Shown piece by piece: positions 5,748 through 13,876 of a stretch of 35,580 nucleotides of DNA (within the stretch, counting starts at the first letter, position 1; the number at the start of each line of letters is the position of its first letter). The DNA is from Gammaproteobacteria bacterium (lineage in GTDB: Bacteria; Pseudomonadota; Gammaproteobacteria; JAUZRS01), in the NCBI GenBank assembly GCA_030950195.1, contig JAUZRS010000280.1, forward strand, positions 1 through 35,580, in the 5' to 3' direction. The notes beneath the pieces were generated by a model that did no database searches, was not told the DNA's origin, and saw only the letters and a list, made by a program, of their open reading frames with translations. The position numbers were made by a program, and so were the translations under genes.

Positions 5748-6758
5748 ATGCTCACCCTGAAAAAAATACTCCACCTCTGTAACACTACCCTACTGTTGGC
5801 CGCCAGCCTTTGCCTCTCAACCACCGCTGCCGCTGAAACTTTGACCGTCGGCTATTTCCTCGAATGGCCGACCCCAAGCCAATACGCCCAAGCAAAAAAG
5901 ATTTACGACCAAGAGCTGGGCATGGAGCTGAAATGGGTCGCCTTTGATGCCGGTACCGCAATGTCAGCAGCGATGGCTTCCGGTGATGTGCAGATCGCTT
6001 TCTCGCAAGGCATTCCACCTTTTGTGGTCGCCACCTCTGCCGGACAAGATCTACACATCGTGGACATTGCCGTCTCCTATTCCGACAACGAAAACTGCGT
6101 GGTGCGTGACACACTGGAGATCGACCAAGAAAACGCCAAAGAGCTGGAAGGAAAACAGGTCGGGGTGCCCTTCGGTACCGCCGCCCATTACGGTTTCCTC
6201 AAACAAATGCAGCATTTTGGCGTTGATACTCGTACGCTGAACATCGTCGATATGTCACCCGCCGACGGAGCCGCCGCCTTTGCCAACGGCAACCTCGATA
6301 TGGTCTGCGGTTGGGGTGGCGCGCTGCAACGAATGAAAGAGCACGGCAACGTGCTGTTAACAGGCGCAGAAAAAGAGCAACTGGGTATTCAGGTCTTTGA
6401 TGCCACCACGGTCTCTGCCGAATGGGCGCAAGAGAACTCCGAATTGCTGGCGCGTTTTCTAAAGGTCAGCGCCGACATGAACGCCCGCTACGCCACCCCA
6501 GAAGGGAAAAAAGAGATGTTGCCGGTCATCGCCACAGCCGCAGGCATGGATGAAAAAACCAGCCAACAGACCCTCAGCACCTTTGTTTTTCCCAGCATCA
6601 AAGAACAGCTGAGCGACAAATGGCTTGGCGGCGGCACACAAACCTTCCTCAAAGCCGTCGGCGATTTTTTTGTCGAACAAAAAACCATCCCCAAGGCACT
6701 CGACAGTTACAAACGTGCCGTTGATTCCAGCTACCTAGAAGCGGCTGCCAAGCTGTAA
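5748..6758 (+). CDS. tauA: Taurine/sulfonate-type ABC transporter substrate-binding protein (TauA-like)
   Basis: Signal peptide then TLTVGYFLEWPTPSQYAQAKKIYDQELGMELKWVAFDAGTAMSAAMASGDVQIAFSQGIPPFVVATSAGQDL; directly upstream of the ATPase and permease genes. Confidence 0.8.
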   Translation: MLTLKKILHLCNTTLLLAASLCLSTTAAAETLTVGYFLEWPTPSQYAQAKKIYDQELGMELKWVAFDAGTAMSAAMASGDVQIAFSQGIPPFVVATSAGQDLHIVDIAVSYSDNENCVVRDTLEIDQENAKELEGKQVGVPFGTAAHYGFLKQMQHFGVDTRTLNIVDMSPADGAAAFANGNLDMVCGWGGALQRMKEHGNVLLTGAEKEQLGIQVFDATTVSAEWAQENSELLARFLKVSADMNARYATPEGKKEMLPVIATAAGMDEKTSQQTLSTFVFPSIKEQLSDKWLGGGTQTFLKAVGDFFVEQKTIPKALDSYKRAVDSSYLEAAAKL

Positions 6759-6769
6759 AGGAGCCCATT

Positions 6770-7582
6770 TTGACCACCTCCAAACAAACCGGCCTCCAGC
6801 TCAGCAACGTTGCCATGAGCTTTGATCTGCCCAACGGTCAGAGCGTGGCTGCGCTGAAGAACATCAATCTACAACTGCAAGCGGGCGAGCTGCTCTCCAT
6901 CCTCGGCCCCTCCGGCTGCGGTAAAACCACTCTGCTCAACATCATCGCCGGTTTTCTGCGCCAAAGTTCAGGGGAAGTGAGCCTAAATGGCCACGCCGTT
7001 ACCGGCCCGCACGCAGAACGTGGCATGGTATTCCAACAAGGTGCGCTGTTTGAGTGGATGAACGTGCGCCAAAACATCGGTTTTGGGCCACGTATGGCAG
7101 GCAAAGATGGAAAACAGACACAACAGCGCGTTGATGAGCTGCTGGAAACCGTCGGCCTACATGGTTTTGGAGACAAGGCGGTCTACGAACTCTCCGGCGG
7201 GATGCAGCAACGGGTGGCGTTGGCGCGCTGCCTCGCCAATGACCCTGACGTGATTCTAATGGATGAGCCGTTGGGGGCGCTGGATGCCCTAACCCGTGAG
7301 AAGATGCAAGAATTGGTACTCAAGCTCTGGCGCGAGACCGGCAAAACCATCCTCCTAATCACCCACTCGGTGGAAGAGGCGCTGCTGCTCGGTGAGCGAC
7401 TGCTGGTGATGGCACCGCGCCCTGGGCGTATTCATAAACAGTATCAACTGCCCTTTGCCAAAATGGCCACGGAAAAAAGCCTACGCGAAGTTAAAAAAGA
7501 GCCGGACTATCTCGACAAACACGACGAAATCCTCAGTATGATCTGGCAGATGGAAGAAGAGATTATGGCCGGAGGCGCTTAA
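6770..7582 (+). CDS. tauB: Taurine/sulfonate-type ABC transporter ATP-binding protein (TauB-like)
   Basis: Walker A GPSGCGKTTLL, signature LSGGMQQRVALARCLA, Walker B VILMDEPLGALD, H-loop ITHSVEEA; TTG start at 6770 preceded by AAAGGAG. Confidence 0.88.
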   Translation: MTTSKQTGLQLSNVAMSFDLPNGQSVAALKNINLQLQAGELLSILGPSGCGKTTLLNIIAGFLRQSSGEVSLNGHAVTGPHAERGMVFQQGALFEWMNVRQNIGFGPRMAGKDGKQTQQRVDELLETVGLHGFGDKAVYELSGGMQQRVALARCLANDPDVILMDEPLGALDALTREKMQELVLKLWRETGKTILLITHSVEEALLLGERLLVMAPRPGRIHKQYQLPFAKMATEKSLREVKKEPDYLDKHDEILSMIWQMEEEIMAGGA

Positions 7583-7585
7583 AAC

Positions 7586-8851
7586 ATGACCCTGTTACTG
7601 ATCTACATCAGCTTGTTTCTACTGGCCTATTTTGGCCATCAGCTCATTAGCAACGTGCTCACTCACCCCGCTCAGCGCAATAACAAAACCGTCACCTTTG
7701 GCGATGAGAGCGCAGTCACACCCAACCGAGCGGCCTCGCTACTTTCCGTTGGCAGTTTGTTTCTGATCTGGGCTGCCTTTACCGGCTCCAGCCTCTCCCC
7801 CTTTCACGTTCCTGCCCCTTTTGTTGGCGAGACCAGTTTTCGCTACAGCGCCATCAATGCACAACAACAGATGGCCACAGCAACGGTCACTGTTCGAGTC
7901 GCCCCCTTTGCTCAGCGAGCAGAAAAACCAAACGTCAGCAACACCGCCAGCGGCTTTGCAAAAGACGACAGCGCCACCAGTAGCGCATGGCGTAATACAC
8001 TGATCCGCGCTCATCGCAACGATCACGGCGGCAAAGAAAAGGGCTATCGGATCACTCACATTGATGGCCAGAAAATTCAACCCGGCAAGGTCGTCAACGT
8101 AACCGATGGCACGGTCAGCATGACCCGCAAAGGCAGCCTAAATTTCACCCCCGACAAAGGCTGGCAGATGGAACCGATCTGGCTCCCAGCACCAGAAGCA
8201 GTTTTTAAACGCTTTATTGAAATCGCCAGTGAGGGTTATCAAAACATCAGCCTGTTTGAACACCTTGGCTGGTCGCTGCTGCGGGTTTTAGCCGGTTTTC
8301 TGCTCGGCTGTCTGGTGGGCATTCCACTCGGTTACGCCATGGGGTTGAACAGTTGGTTTCGCGGTTGGTTTGATCCCATTGTGGAGTTCATGCGTCCCGT
8401 GCCGCCTCTGGCGTTAATCCCGTTGATCATTATCTGGTTTGGCATTTGGGAGAGCGGCAAAATCAGTCTGCTCTTTTTGGCCGCGCTCTGGATCATGACC
8501 CTTGCGGCACGCTCGGGAGTCTCCAGTGTGAACATCGTCAAAATCCACGCCGCCTACTCACTCGGGGCTTCAAAGATACAAATTCTGCGGCATGTGATCA
8601 TCCCCAACTCCCTGCCTGAAATTTTTACCGGTGCTCGGGTGGCAATGGGAATCTGCTGGGGAACGGTGGTGGCCGCCGAGCTGGTGGCCGCCGAAAAAGG
8701 CGCGGGCAAAATGATCATTGCCGCCTCTAAATTTCAGCAGACCGACGTGGTCATGATGGGGATTATTTTAATCGGCATCATCGGTTACAGCATTGACCTA
8801 TTAATGCGCAAAGCAGAGAAAATTCTGGTGCCGTGGCGAGGCAAAGGTTAG
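7586..8851 (+). CDS. tauC: Taurine/sulfonate-type ABC transporter permease (TauC-like) with large extracytoplasmic insertion
   Basis: C-terminal permease core LPAPEAVFKRFIEIASEGYQNISLFEHLGWSLLRVLAGFLLGCLVGIPLGYAMGL...EFMRPVPPLALIPLIIIWFGIWESGKI...; 421 aa, with an extra segment of about 120 aa after TM 'SLLSVGSLFLIWAAF'. Confidence 0.87.
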   Translation: MTLLLIYISLFLLAYFGHQLISNVLTHPAQRNNKTVTFGDESAVTPNRAASLLSVGSLFLIWAAFTGSSLSPFHVPAPFVGETSFRYSAINAQQQMATATVTVRVAPFAQRAEKPNVSNTASGFAKDDSATSSAWRNTLIRAHRNDHGGKEKGYRITHIDGQKIQPGKVVNVTDGTVSMTRKGSLNFTPDKGWQMEPIWLPAPEAVFKRFIEIASEGYQNISLFEHLGWSLLRVLAGFLLGCLVGIPLGYAMGLNSWFRGWFDPIVEFMRPVPPLALIPLIIIWFGIWESGKISLLFLAALWIMTLAARSGVSSVNIVKIHAAYSLGASKIQILRHVIIPNSLPEIFTGARVAMGICWGTVVAAELVAAEKGAGKMIIAASKFQQTDVVMMGIILIGIIGYSIDLLMRKAEKILVPWRGKG

Positions 8852-9843: not shown

Positions 9844-11106
9844 CTAAAAAAGCGCCATCTGGGCATTCAAATTAGCCATCCGCTTTGTTGCAGAAAGCGC
9901 CCTGTTATCTTCAATGCTGTTCAACAGAGCAATCATGCGTCTGCCCATCGCATGAGCTAAATTAACCGGCACCGCATTGCCAATCTGTTTGTATTGGCTG
10001 CTCACCGACCCCACAAATTGCCAATCATCTGAAAAGGTTTGAATCCGCGCATACTCTCTCACAGTCAAGGGTCGGGTCTCTTCGGGGTGACAACGCTCGG
10101 TCTGTTTTTGCGCGGGTGCGCAGGTCAGGGTCAAACTGGGGCTGTCATAGGAGAGTCGTCGAGCCATGCCTGTTTTGCCGCCACCTAAAAAATAGCTCTT
10201 TTGCATGTACTCTCTCTGCACCTCATCAGGAAGATCAACCCAGCAGCCTCCTGGCGGAACCATATCCAATATCTCTTTTTTTCTTTTAGGGTAAACCTGC
10301 CCCTGAGAATCGGGACAATCGGAATCGTACAGAGCGCCTTTTTTCAACGCATCTCTGAGCGTTAACACCTTAGAATAAGGCTCAGGCCAACTGAATTCAG
10401 CGTGTTCAAACAGATCATTGCGAATACAGACTAAAAACAACCGCTCTCTTTTTTGCGGCACTTGATAAAAAATAGCCTTCAAGACCTTTGGCTCAATCAA
10501 GGTGTAACCAATATCTTCAATCACCGCTTTAATCGCTGCCAGAGTTTTACCGCCATCATGGTTTAATAAACCACGAACATTTTCACCCAGAAAAACCTTC
10601 GGCCTGACCTCTTTGATTGCTCTGGCAAACTCAAAAAACAGCGTCCCCCGCGCATCTTCAAACCCCATCTTATTGCCTGCGTAAGAAAAAGCTTGGCAAG
10701 GAAAACCACCGGATAAAAAATCCACATCTTTGTAGGTGCTAAAATCAATACGGCTAATATCAGCCTCAATTACGTTCCAATCAGGACGATTTTCTCGCAA
10801 TGTTTTACACGCATCCTTATCAATCTCATTCAGCGCCACTGCATCAAATCCCGCACGCTCTAAACCGATGGCCAAGCCACCCGCTCCGGCAAACAACTCA
10901 ATCGAACGATACGCTCTGATCGGCTTAACCTTTATTTCTTCACTCCATTTTGATTGAAGAAGAGCTTGAATTTGCGGAAACTCGGACAAACTTTTTAAAG
11001 CGTACTTGCCATTTTTTAGCGGCTTAATCTTGCCCTTTTTTTTCCAGCTCTCGACGGTACGCTTAGAGACAGACATGATATCTGCCAATACTTCTTCTGA
11101 AATCAT
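9844..11106 (-). CDS. C5-cytosine DNA methyltransferase with N-terminal HTH-like segment (solitary)
   Basis: Motif I SIELFAGAGGLAIGLERAGFDAVALNEID, motif IV GGFPCQAFSYAGNKMGFEDARGTLFFEF, motif VI ENVRGL, motif VIII QKRERLF, motif X QIGNAVPVNLA. N-terminus SEEVLADIMSVSKRTVESWKKKGKIKPLKNGKYAL looks HTH-like. Start at 11106 (MISEE) or 11130 (overlapping the polA end). Confidence 0.93.
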   Translation of the reverse strand: MISEEVLADIMSVSKRTVESWKKKGKIKPLKNGKYALKSLSEFPQIQALLQSKWSEEIKVKPIRAYRSIELFAGAGGLAIGLERAGFDAVALNEIDKDACKTLRENRPDWNVIEADISRIDFSTYKDVDFLSGGFPCQAFSYAGNKMGFEDARGTLFFEFARAIKEVRPKVFLGENVRGLLNHDGGKTLAAIKAVIEDIGYTLIEPKVLKAIFYQVPQKRERLFLVCIRNDLFEHAEFSWPEPYSKVLTLRDALKKGALYDSDCPDSQGQVYPKRKKEILDMVPPGGCWVDLPDEVQREYMQKSYFLGGGKTGMARRLSYDSPSLTLTCAPAQKQTERCHPEETRPLTVREYARIQTFSDDWQFVGSVSSQYKQIGNAVPVNLAHAMGRRMIALLNSIEDNRALSATKRMANLNAQMALF

Positions 11107-11111
11107 CGCCA

Positions 11112-13811
11112 CTAATGCGCCTCTTCCCAATTCGCCCCCACACCCAGATCCACCACCAACGGCACCGCCAGTTGCGCTGCTGATTCCATCAGCTTCGTGA
11201 CCTTCTTCTGCACCGTGATCAGCTCCTCCTGAGGCACTTCAAACACCAGTTCATCGTGTACCTGCATGATGATCCGGCTCTGTAGATCAGAGCCTTGCAA
11301 CCACGAATCCACCGCAATCATGGCCCGCTTGATGATGTCCGCTGCCGTGCCTTGCATCGGCGCGTTGATCGCCGTGCGTTCGGCGTATTGGCGACGCTGA
11401 GCGTTGCGGGCGTTGATCTCCGGCAGATAGAGACGACGACCAAAGACCGTCTCCACATAACCGTTCGCGCGCGCAAATTCGCGGGTCTGCTCCATATACG
11501 CTTTCACTCCAGGATAACGTTCAAAATAGAGATCCACATACTCCTGCGCCTGCCTGCGAGGAACACTCAACTGCTTGGCCAAACCAAAAGCCGACATGCC
11601 GTAAATCAGACCAAAATTGATCGCCTTGGCAGCACGGCGCTGATCGTTGCTAACAGACTCCCGCGCCACAGCAAACACCTCGGCAGCAGTGGCTTTATGC
11701 ACATCTTCACCGTTAGCAAAGGCGCTCAGCAGCCCTTCATCAGCGGAGAGGTGCGCCATAATCCGCAGTTCTACCTGCGAATAATCGGCAGCTAAAATCA
11801 CCCCACCCTCCGCAGCCACAAAAGCCTGCCGAATGCGCCGCCCTTCCTGCGTCCGCACAGGAATGTTCTGTAAATTTGGATCAGAGGAAGAGAGCCTGCC
11901 GGTGGCAGTAACCGCTTGATGATAAGAGGTGTGGATGCGCCCATCCACATCGCTCACCTGCTCAGGCAGCCGATCCAAATAGGTGTTTTTTAATTTACTC
12001 AGCGAACGATGTTCTAAAATCAATTTGGGCAGCGGGTAGTCCAGCGCCAACTGCTCCAATACATCCTCAGCAGTGGAGGGCTGACCTTTAGGAGTTTTGC
12101 GAATCACCGGCAGTTTTAACTGCTCAAAAAAAATCGCTTGAATCTGCTTCGGTGAGTTGAGATTAAATTCCTGATCCGCCTCTTGATAAGCCGCCTCTTG
12201 CAAACTCTGTAAGCGCGCCTCCAACTCGCGGCTCTGTTCGTGAAGCAGTTCACAATCCACCTTTACCCCTGTGCGTTCGATGCGCGACAGCACCGTTAAT
12301 AAGGGCAATTCCGTCTGTTGGTAGAGTCTTTTTTGCGCGGGCAACTCGTCCAGTTGTGGCCAAAAAATCTGATGCAGAGCCAGCGTGACATCTGCATCTT
12401 CAGCGGCATAAGGAGCGGCCACCTCTATCTCAATCTGATCAAAGGTGAGCTGCTTTTTGCCTTTGCCTGCGACATCCTCAAAAGAGGTGGTGCTGACCTT
12501 GAGGTATTTTTTCGCCAAGCTGTCCATATCGTGCCGCCCAACGGAATCGAGCAGATAGGATTGCAACATGGTGTCGTGTTCGATGCCCCGCAATTCGATG
12601 CCGTGATTTAACAGCACACTGCGGTCGTATTTGAGGTTCTGACCGACCTTTTTCAGCTCTGGATTCTCCAGCAGTGGCTTGAGCTGCGCCAACACCGCCT
12701 CTCGATCCAACTGCTCTGGCGCACCCAGATAACGATGTGCCAAAGGCAGATAGGCCGCTTCGTCCCTTTTCAGCGCAAAGGAGACCCCCACCACCTCGGC
12801 CTGCATAATATCGAGACTGGTGGTTTCGCTGTCAAAGGCAAACAGTTCGGCGTGTTGAAGACGGTGCAGCCACTGATCCAACTCAGCTTGGGTCAAAATA
12901 AGCTGATAATTTTTTTCCACCACAGGCTCAGAAACACTCTCCTCTGCCCCTCCTTCTTGCAACTGTGCCAACCAGGTTTTGAATTGCAAACGCTCATAGA
13001 GCGCCATCAAAGCCTCATGATCCGGCTCACGCACCTGTAGATCTTGCGGTCCTTCGGGCAGCTGCAGATCCAATTTAATCGTCGTCAGGGTGTGAGAGAG
13101 TTGCAACTGTTCGAGGTTGTCACGCAGCCGTTCGCCGATTTTGCCCTTAATTTTATCGGCGTTGGCAATGAGGTTGGTCACGCTGTCGTAGGCAGCCAAC
13201 CATTTTTGCGCGGTCTTTGCTCCACAACCCGGCACTCCGGGAATGTTGTCGGCGCTGTCGCCCATCAGTGCCAAGTAGTCAATGATCTGATCGGGACGCA
13301 CGCCGAACTTTTCCACCACCCCCGCCGGATCTAAAACCGTATCGGTCATGGTGTTGATCAAGGTGATGTTGTCGTCCACCAACTGCGCCATGTCTTTGTC
13401 GCCAGTGGAGATCAAGACCGCCATCCCCTCTTTGGCGGCCTGTTTGGCCAACGTGCCGATCACATCGTCTGCTTCCACGCCTGACTCCATCAGCAGTGGC
13501 AGCCCCAGCGCCCGCACCGCTTGGTGCAGCGGTTCGATCTGCATCTGCAATTCGTCGGGCATCGGGGGGCGATGGGATTTGTACTCGGCATAAAGATCAT
13601 CGCGAAAAGTTTTGCCTTTGGCATCAAACACCACCGCCAAATGCGTCGGTTGGTGTTCTTCCAGCAGTTTTTTCAGCATGTTTAGCACACCGTAAACCGC
13701 GCCGGTGGGTTCGCCCAGTTCGTTACGCAAGTCAGCACGCGACATGGCAAAAAAAGCACGGTAAAGATAGGACGAACCGTCCACCAAAATGAGGGGGCTG
13801 TTTTGCGCCAT
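11112..13811 (-). CDS. polA: DNA polymerase I
   Basis: [23 protein letters not shown]...; 5'-3' exonuclease, 3'-5' exonuclease ([24 protein letters not shown]) and polymerase motifs ([41 protein letters not shown]). Start chosen at 13811. Confidence 0.97.
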
Positions 13812-13876
13812 GATCTGGCTCCAAGGGTCAAGAAAGAGGGGCGGAGAGTGTAACAAAAACGTCCTGTGTTAGAGGA

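Follow-up and report, generated by a model that had tools for sequence, protein, structure and literature searches.

A TauC-like permease with a periplasmic insert resembling a circularly permuted Big_9-type repeat

Introduction

The TauC-like permease encoded in a 35,580-nucleotide stretch of gammaproteobacterial DNA (the window) carries about 130 additional residues which almost certainly represent a circularly permuted Big_9-type domain, a conclusion about as firm as sequence permits. As a whole, the best explanation, which we consider rather likely, is that a permuted Big_9 repeat would have been captured from a tandem array and would contact the substrate-binding protein (SBP) of the transporter in a mode like that of the P2 domain of MalF. 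That domain is the precedent for an Ig-like domain in an importer permease; a limited open-access literature search found no earlier description of the present insert. The insert would be a clean natural case of circular permutation, in which the tandem intermediate already exists in the array and the permutant results from cutting out of phase, and termini on one side of a permutant are what insertion into a membrane-protein loop needs. Here we present the features of the operon and of the permease, together with the relationship, predicted structure, distribution and possible function of the insert.

Organization of the operon and the permease

The list of open reading frames and profile searches delivered a three-gene operon in the order SBP, ATPase, permease:

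5748..6758, + strand: TauA-like periplasmic substrate-binding protein (SBP), 336 aa (TIGR01729, 189 bits, cut-off 304)
6770..7582, + strand: TauB-like ATPase, 270 aa, TTG start as listed (PRK11248, 290 bits, cut-off 357)
7586..8851, + strand: TauC-like permease with insert, 421 aa (BPD_transp_1, 97.7 bits; PRK10160 TauC, 233 bits)

Among solved structures, the taurine-binding protein 6ssy comes closest to the SBP (E 2.9e-27). The core of the permease matches the type I ABC importer permease profile BPD_transp_1 (PF00528) above the gathering score, and Foldseek matches of the permease model include NrtB/CmpB (E<=1e-7). Because the 233 bits against the TauC equivalog NF007545/PRK10160 stay under the curated cut-off of 342, the protein is designated TauC-like and not a certified TauC. 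With TauC and the TauABC system of E. coli it shares core homology (233 bits), the gene order SBP-ATPase-permease and an SBP whose nearest solved relative is TauA; it differs from E. coli TauC by the insert of about 130 aa and by an additional N-terminal transmembrane (TM) helix. Elsewhere in the window, a gene for a probable C5 cytosine DNA methyltransferase with a helix-turn-helix-like N-terminal part (9844-11130, - strand) is located directly downstream of polA (11112-13856, - strand), with a small overlap.

The permease is laid out as follows:

7589..7660, + strand: extra N-terminal TM helix, aa 2-25 (AF2 helix H2-25; hydropathy scan)
7685..7711, + strand: near-invariant KTVTFGDES segment, aa 34-42, predicted cytoplasmic (invariant K34, T37, F38, G39, D40, E41)
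7727..7783, + strand: TM helix running outward to the insert, aa 48-66 (AF2 H48-66)
7784..8173, + strand: whole insert, aa ~67-196 (alignment; AF2 of aa 70-203)
7820..7903, + strand: first half of the insert, aa 79-106, corresponding to repeat strands F-G, the C-terminal part (Big_9 profile 61-88; hhalign; AF2 strands E81-90, E96-106)
7904..7966, + strand: G-to-A linker, aa 107-127, roughly double the length found in arrays
7955..8164, + strand: second half of the insert, aa 124-193, corresponding to repeat strands A-E, the N-terminal part (Big_9 profile 29-64; hhalign; AF2 strands E128-133 to E185-189)
8183..8194, + strand: host LPxP motif (LPAP), aa 200-203, where the TauC sequence resumes (aligned with LPPP of E. 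coli TauC)
8318..8809, + strand: BPD_transp_1 core, aa 245-408 (Pfam)

When the permease is aligned with TauC of E. coli and with the nearest relatives that lack the insert, L121 and L122 (62-63% identical to the window permease in the core), the insert falls between TM helix 48-66 and the LPxP motif, in whose region P201, P203 and E204 are invariant. As the preceding TM helix leads outward and the host LPxP helix comes after, the insert is assigned to the periplasm. The initial annotation had described about 120 extra residues before LPxP in this permease of 421 aa, and the alignment agrees, with about 130 residues at aa ~67-196; the interval noted at the time, 7817-8182, equals aa 78-199 and contains the peptides quoted. 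From the proline motifs that had been described at both ends, the second (IWLPAP) stands as a flank, since it is the host LPxP motif, and the first (SPFHVPAP) is instead readable as the E-F loop of the repeat, because arrays hold YVPAPNFNG.

Of the 65 insert-bearing permeases, 62 possess the additional N-terminal TM helix, which is absent in E. coli TauC, L121 and L122, so that helix and insert appear as markers of one clade. The KTVTFGDES segment, a stretch before the TM helix with low model confidence, also occurs in the insert-free L121 and L122 and is for that reason probably older than the insert. The joint occurrence of insert and N-terminal helix in the same clade, with TauC, L121 and L122 lacking both, would fit a stability or assembly element, in which the two together aid membrane insertion or folding and take no part in the transport cycle. 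We regard this as improbable, as it has no specific support and the pattern of conservation within the insert (see below) suggests an interface.

Relationship of the insert to Big_9 repeats

Pfam Big_9 (PF17963) matches the whole permease with 24.7 bits (gathering score 23.6) in two stretches, and the insert region alone with 28.7 bits; matches at E<=0.01 were obtained in 53 of 65 homologues. The first stretch, aa 76-103, corresponds to profile positions 61-88, which is the end of the domain, and the second to positions 29-64. The strand order of the insert departs from the canonical A-to-G order of Big_9: the halves are swapped, and a single continuous match arises only after rejoining, for which the insert was cut where the halves meet and the pieces were reassembled in canonical order. 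Rejoining raised the Big_9 scores of four homologues from 25.1 to 36.9, from 20.8 to 32.0, from 33.3 to 44.5 and from 25.5 to 37.0 bits, with one stretch each across the new joint and with coverage of profile 6-88 of 89 in two of the four.

A repeat profile was built from tandem repeats of giant proteins in other genomes, with the insert sequences left out. Against this profile the mean score of 65 inserts is 18.6 bits in native order and 41.9 bits after rejoining; all 65 gain, by 23.3 bits on average and by 5.1 bits at least. A rotation scan of the window insert puts the native ends near the worst cut (19.0 bits), with a broad plateau of internal cuts at about 43 bits, and 200 residue shuffles of the same insert reach a maximum of 5.1 bits. 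By hhalign, the native insert covers one repeat in two swapped, complementary tiles (insert 1-32 on repeat 64-95, insert 46-113 on repeat 6-63), and the rotated insert aligns with it in one piece, 6-95, with an E value of 1.6e-16. The native insert aligns in one piece only with two tandem repeats (64-154, E 7.4e-15).

The initial annotation had recognized the C-terminal half of a repeat in the first part of the insert and the N-terminal half in the last part. Both assignments are borne out, as aa 79-106 match strands F-G and aa 124-193 match strands A-E, and the circularly permuted cadherin/Ig-like repeat postulated from them is supported by the Pfam stretches with their rejoining, by the profile-profile tiling and by the rotation scan. 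The profile comparison proposed at the same time gave similarity in both halves (Big_9 above the gathering score; hhalign tiles).

That the insert is no permutant, being a coincidental beta domain or the product of a misphased Pfam boundary, is very hard to believe. Pfam boundaries are partly conventional, and the native Pfam score of 24.7 bits is low; against this stand the two complementary tiles with a rejoined E of 1.6e-16, the improvement of 65/65 inserts on rejoining and the shuffles that stay under the native score. The phase itself is set by the ends of arrays, from strand A to strand G: a short array in a secreted-metalloprotease-like protein (L105) opens with strand A, and the chain stops shortly past strand G, which makes the canonical phase more than a Pfam convention. 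A search of PDB with the insert profile gave weak hits only (E 0.11-0.41); among them, the hits of the F-G half to KIAA0319, a cadherin-domain protein and an RTX protein likewise lie near the C-terminal chain ends, as expected for this half.

The insert is thus regarded as homologous to the Big_9/Cadherin_5/tandem-95 repeats of giant bacterial surface proteins and comprises one whole repeat period. Unlike in those arrays, it is single-copy and circularly permuted, and its linker is doubled. Where the arrays have NED(T) ahead of strand B, the insert has a conserved AWR(S); a loss of calcium binding at this position is only a guess.

Predicted structure

The AF2 model of the whole permease shows pLDDT values of about 81-95 across aa 70-200, and the insert alone (aa 70-203) was modelled with a mean pLDDT of 90.3 and a pTM of 0.81. 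Eight strands occur in the insert model where F, G, A, B, C, C', D and E are expected, and the model predicts a single compact beta domain. A disordered linker, which had been considered beforehand as the outcome contrary to a beta-sandwich, was not returned by AlphaFold (insert pLDDT 90, pTM 0.81). Foldseek, an aligner that works in sequence order, found no match of the insert model at E<=1e-3 in PDB and BFVD and returned permease cores only for the full permease model in PDB. As a sequential aligner would miss a permutant, the negative result for the insert is no proof of a new fold; nor does it provide direct confirmation of the predicted one.

Ig sandwiches have the E-F loop and the terminus of strand G at one pole and the start of strand A at the other. 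From this geometry, a cut in the E-F loop would bring the two new termini close to each other and call for a longer G-to-A connection. The G-to-A linker has a median length of 21 residues (20-33, n=65) in the inserts versus 11 (8-20, n=22) in the arrays, and such a doubled linker is what a closed permutant needs. Insert termini that meet at the membrane are consistent with the doubled linker, given this pole geometry. The E-F cut would put both ends of the domain at one pole, which would enable it to stand on the membrane, with the sandwich closed by the longer G-to-A linker.

TauC-type permeases are taken as homodimers, and a domain swap between the protomers is conceivable in which each permease supplies the F-G that its partner's A-E lacks, stapling the homodimer. 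The insert does combine half-domains from two adjacent repeats, and swapping between homologous domains in tandem is on record (PMC6863430). Still, the monomeric insert is modelled as one compact unit (pLDDT 90, pTM 0.81), and the linker of 21 residues, twice the array length, suits closure in one chain; a swap therefore appears quite improbable, and a sandwich closed within one chain is preferred.

Probable origin from a tandem array

Capture of the insert as one out-of-phase repeat period from a tandem array is the probable route of origin, because the insert, in its native order, corresponds to two tandem repeats in an out-of-phase reading. In native order the insert resembles out-of-phase array segments in open reading frames of ~7.7 kaa, with 36% identity over insert residues 7-129. 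A segment one repeat long would have left the array out of phase and entered the permease after the TM helix that leads outward and before the LPxP helix, giving the proposed strand order F-G-linker-A-B-C-C'-D-E in place of A-to-G. Duplication and trimming is an admissible alternative route and would need a tandem intermediate as well.

The C-terminal part of one repeat and the N-terminal part of the next have been described to form a central domain that equals a circular permutant (PMC6863430). The same combination of parts is found in the insert; the tandem domain swap, however, is a misfolded state of an intact array, whereas the insert is a conserved single domain in another protein.

Distribution and gain of the insert

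All 80 best relatives fetched, which belong to alpha- and gammaproteobacteria and one Nitrospirota MAG, carry the insert, as does a genome of the same genus with 96% identity. In an even phylum sample of 399 genomes, a TauC-like permease was detected in 64 at the threshold E<=1e-45, and the insert is present in 13, the window's own included; the other TauC-like permeases of the sample align only from the end of the insert onward. Its presence in the best 80 loci, the same-genus genome and 12 further sampled genomes excludes chance and assembly artefact, and the survey of TauC homologues recommended in the initial annotation has thereby shown the same insertion in the best 80 relatives and in 13/64 sampled permeases.

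In a tree based on the core only, the 65 insert-bearing sequences fall on one side of a branch with support 91/96, and the state of the insert changes once, versus a mean of 31 changes after shuffling. As the insert-bearing cores fall on one side of a single branch, one gain is enough; the tree fits such a single gain, to be read with care owing to long branches elsewhere in the core tree.

An interpretation of the insert as a general ABC-permease module was rejected, since within the 399 genomes it is confined to the TauC-like clade and to repeat-array proteins. A match on a Caballeronia plasmid (H7) was discarded as an insert variant: the permease has about 300 aa and the match extends into the adjacent ATPase gene. 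The insert-bearing permease of the Nitrospirota MAG (L008, Candidatus Magnetocorallium) branches among gammaproteobacterial ones, by horizontal transfer or by a binning error. Another TauC-like permease (L124:283-1254, - strand) contains a different, charged insertion of about 45-50 aa, DPGAVSYFKEGMLVDRELFDKESAKLEETGEV, in the same loop before LPxP, from which it follows that this loop tolerates insertions more than once. The insert-bearing permease at L096:1288-2616 (+ strand) possesses a further cysteine-bounded stretch of about 22 aa, CINQLWARGTSWSERWDSFTNC, right after the LPxP helix.

Possible function

Docking, substrate delivery and envelope anchoring are the functions to be considered for an extracytoplasmic domain in this position. 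Docking of the SBP leads among them and is favoured over delivery and anchoring, with about an even chance of being correct, and its best analogue is the MalF system. The P2 domain of MalF is described as Ig-like. In E. coli MalF, the MalF_P2 profile, used as a control, covers residues 100-260 (206 bits) and BPD_transp_1 covers 298-501. P2 (PF14785) and the window insert are both folded periplasmic domains, the latter by prediction, and are placed in the same loop before the BPD_transp_1 core (insert ~67-196, core 245-408 in the window permease); residues of MalF P2 contact the maltose-binding protein MalE (PMC3150292). MalF differs in being half of a heterodimer, the window permease presumably forming a homodimer, and the insert differs in being a permuted Big_9 repeat. 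The MalF_P2 profile matches neither the permease nor the insert at E<=1, and the analogy is one of position and fold class. It suggests that a periplasmic folded domain evolved in the same importer loop at least twice. Two domains per presumed homodimer would flank the periplasmic mouth and touch the SBP as MalF P2 does MalE. Insert-free TauC works without such a domain, and docking can therefore not strictly need it.

Further hints come from the comparison of operons. After removal of core and ATPase effects, the divergence of the insert follows that of the SBP in 48 operons with a partial r of 0.206 (Mantel p 0.0005), a weak correlation among related and hence non-independent sequences; for insert and ATPase the value is r 0.035 (p 0.31, 48 operons). 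This set replaced a first attempt with 28 operons based on automatic ORF clusters and unreliable ATPase picks. The co-divergence may be taken as a modest independent hint of docking. The polar residues H74, R136, K182, Q194 and E196 of the insert are conserved specifically in the clade and suggest an interface.

An envelope anchor or spacer, with adhesin-type binding to peptidoglycan, another membrane protein or a neighbouring transporter retained and with no dock for the SBP, is the next reading to be weighed. The insert has its relatives among the repeats of giant proteins of surface or adhesin-like type, and its rate of evolution exceeds that of the core (corrected distance 0.79 vs 0.19). 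A passive spacer, however, would hardly keep the five clade-specific polar residues named above, and the co-divergence with the SBP also speaks against it, so that we consider an anchor unlikely, if less so than the stability element or the domain swap.

The preferred reading, docking, can be extended to a fuller account: an array-derived permutant would have been fixed once and kept across alpha- and gammaproteobacteria for standing on the membrane and clamping the SBP, as an independent counterpart of MalF P2 present twice per homodimer. Put in this complete form it is offered tentatively, its chances being somewhat below even.

Substrate context

Among the best 80 loci, a class III aminotransferase is encoded near the insert-type operon in 26 and a MocR-type regulator in 16. 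The neighbourhood differs from locus to locus, with genes of aminotransferase, sarcosine/dimethylglycine-dehydrogenase-like or HisD-like type. The best Xsc-type match in the genome of the window is well under the family cut-off. Transporters of this clade are common among Rhodobacterales of marine origin and are also present in Thioglobus-like bacteria, and the domain may for this reason matter for the uptake of taurine-type compounds in seawater. In the marine Ruegeria pomeroyi DSS-3, mutants in tauABC no longer use taurine (PMC10130141). Substrates may differ within the insert-bearing clade: on a Ruegeria plasmid (L148:1629-9164), an insert-type transporter is located beside genes annotated as hisD, amino acid racemase and D-cysteine desulfhydrase, surroundings which could be a sulfonate (cysteate/dihydroxypropanesulfonate) cluster.
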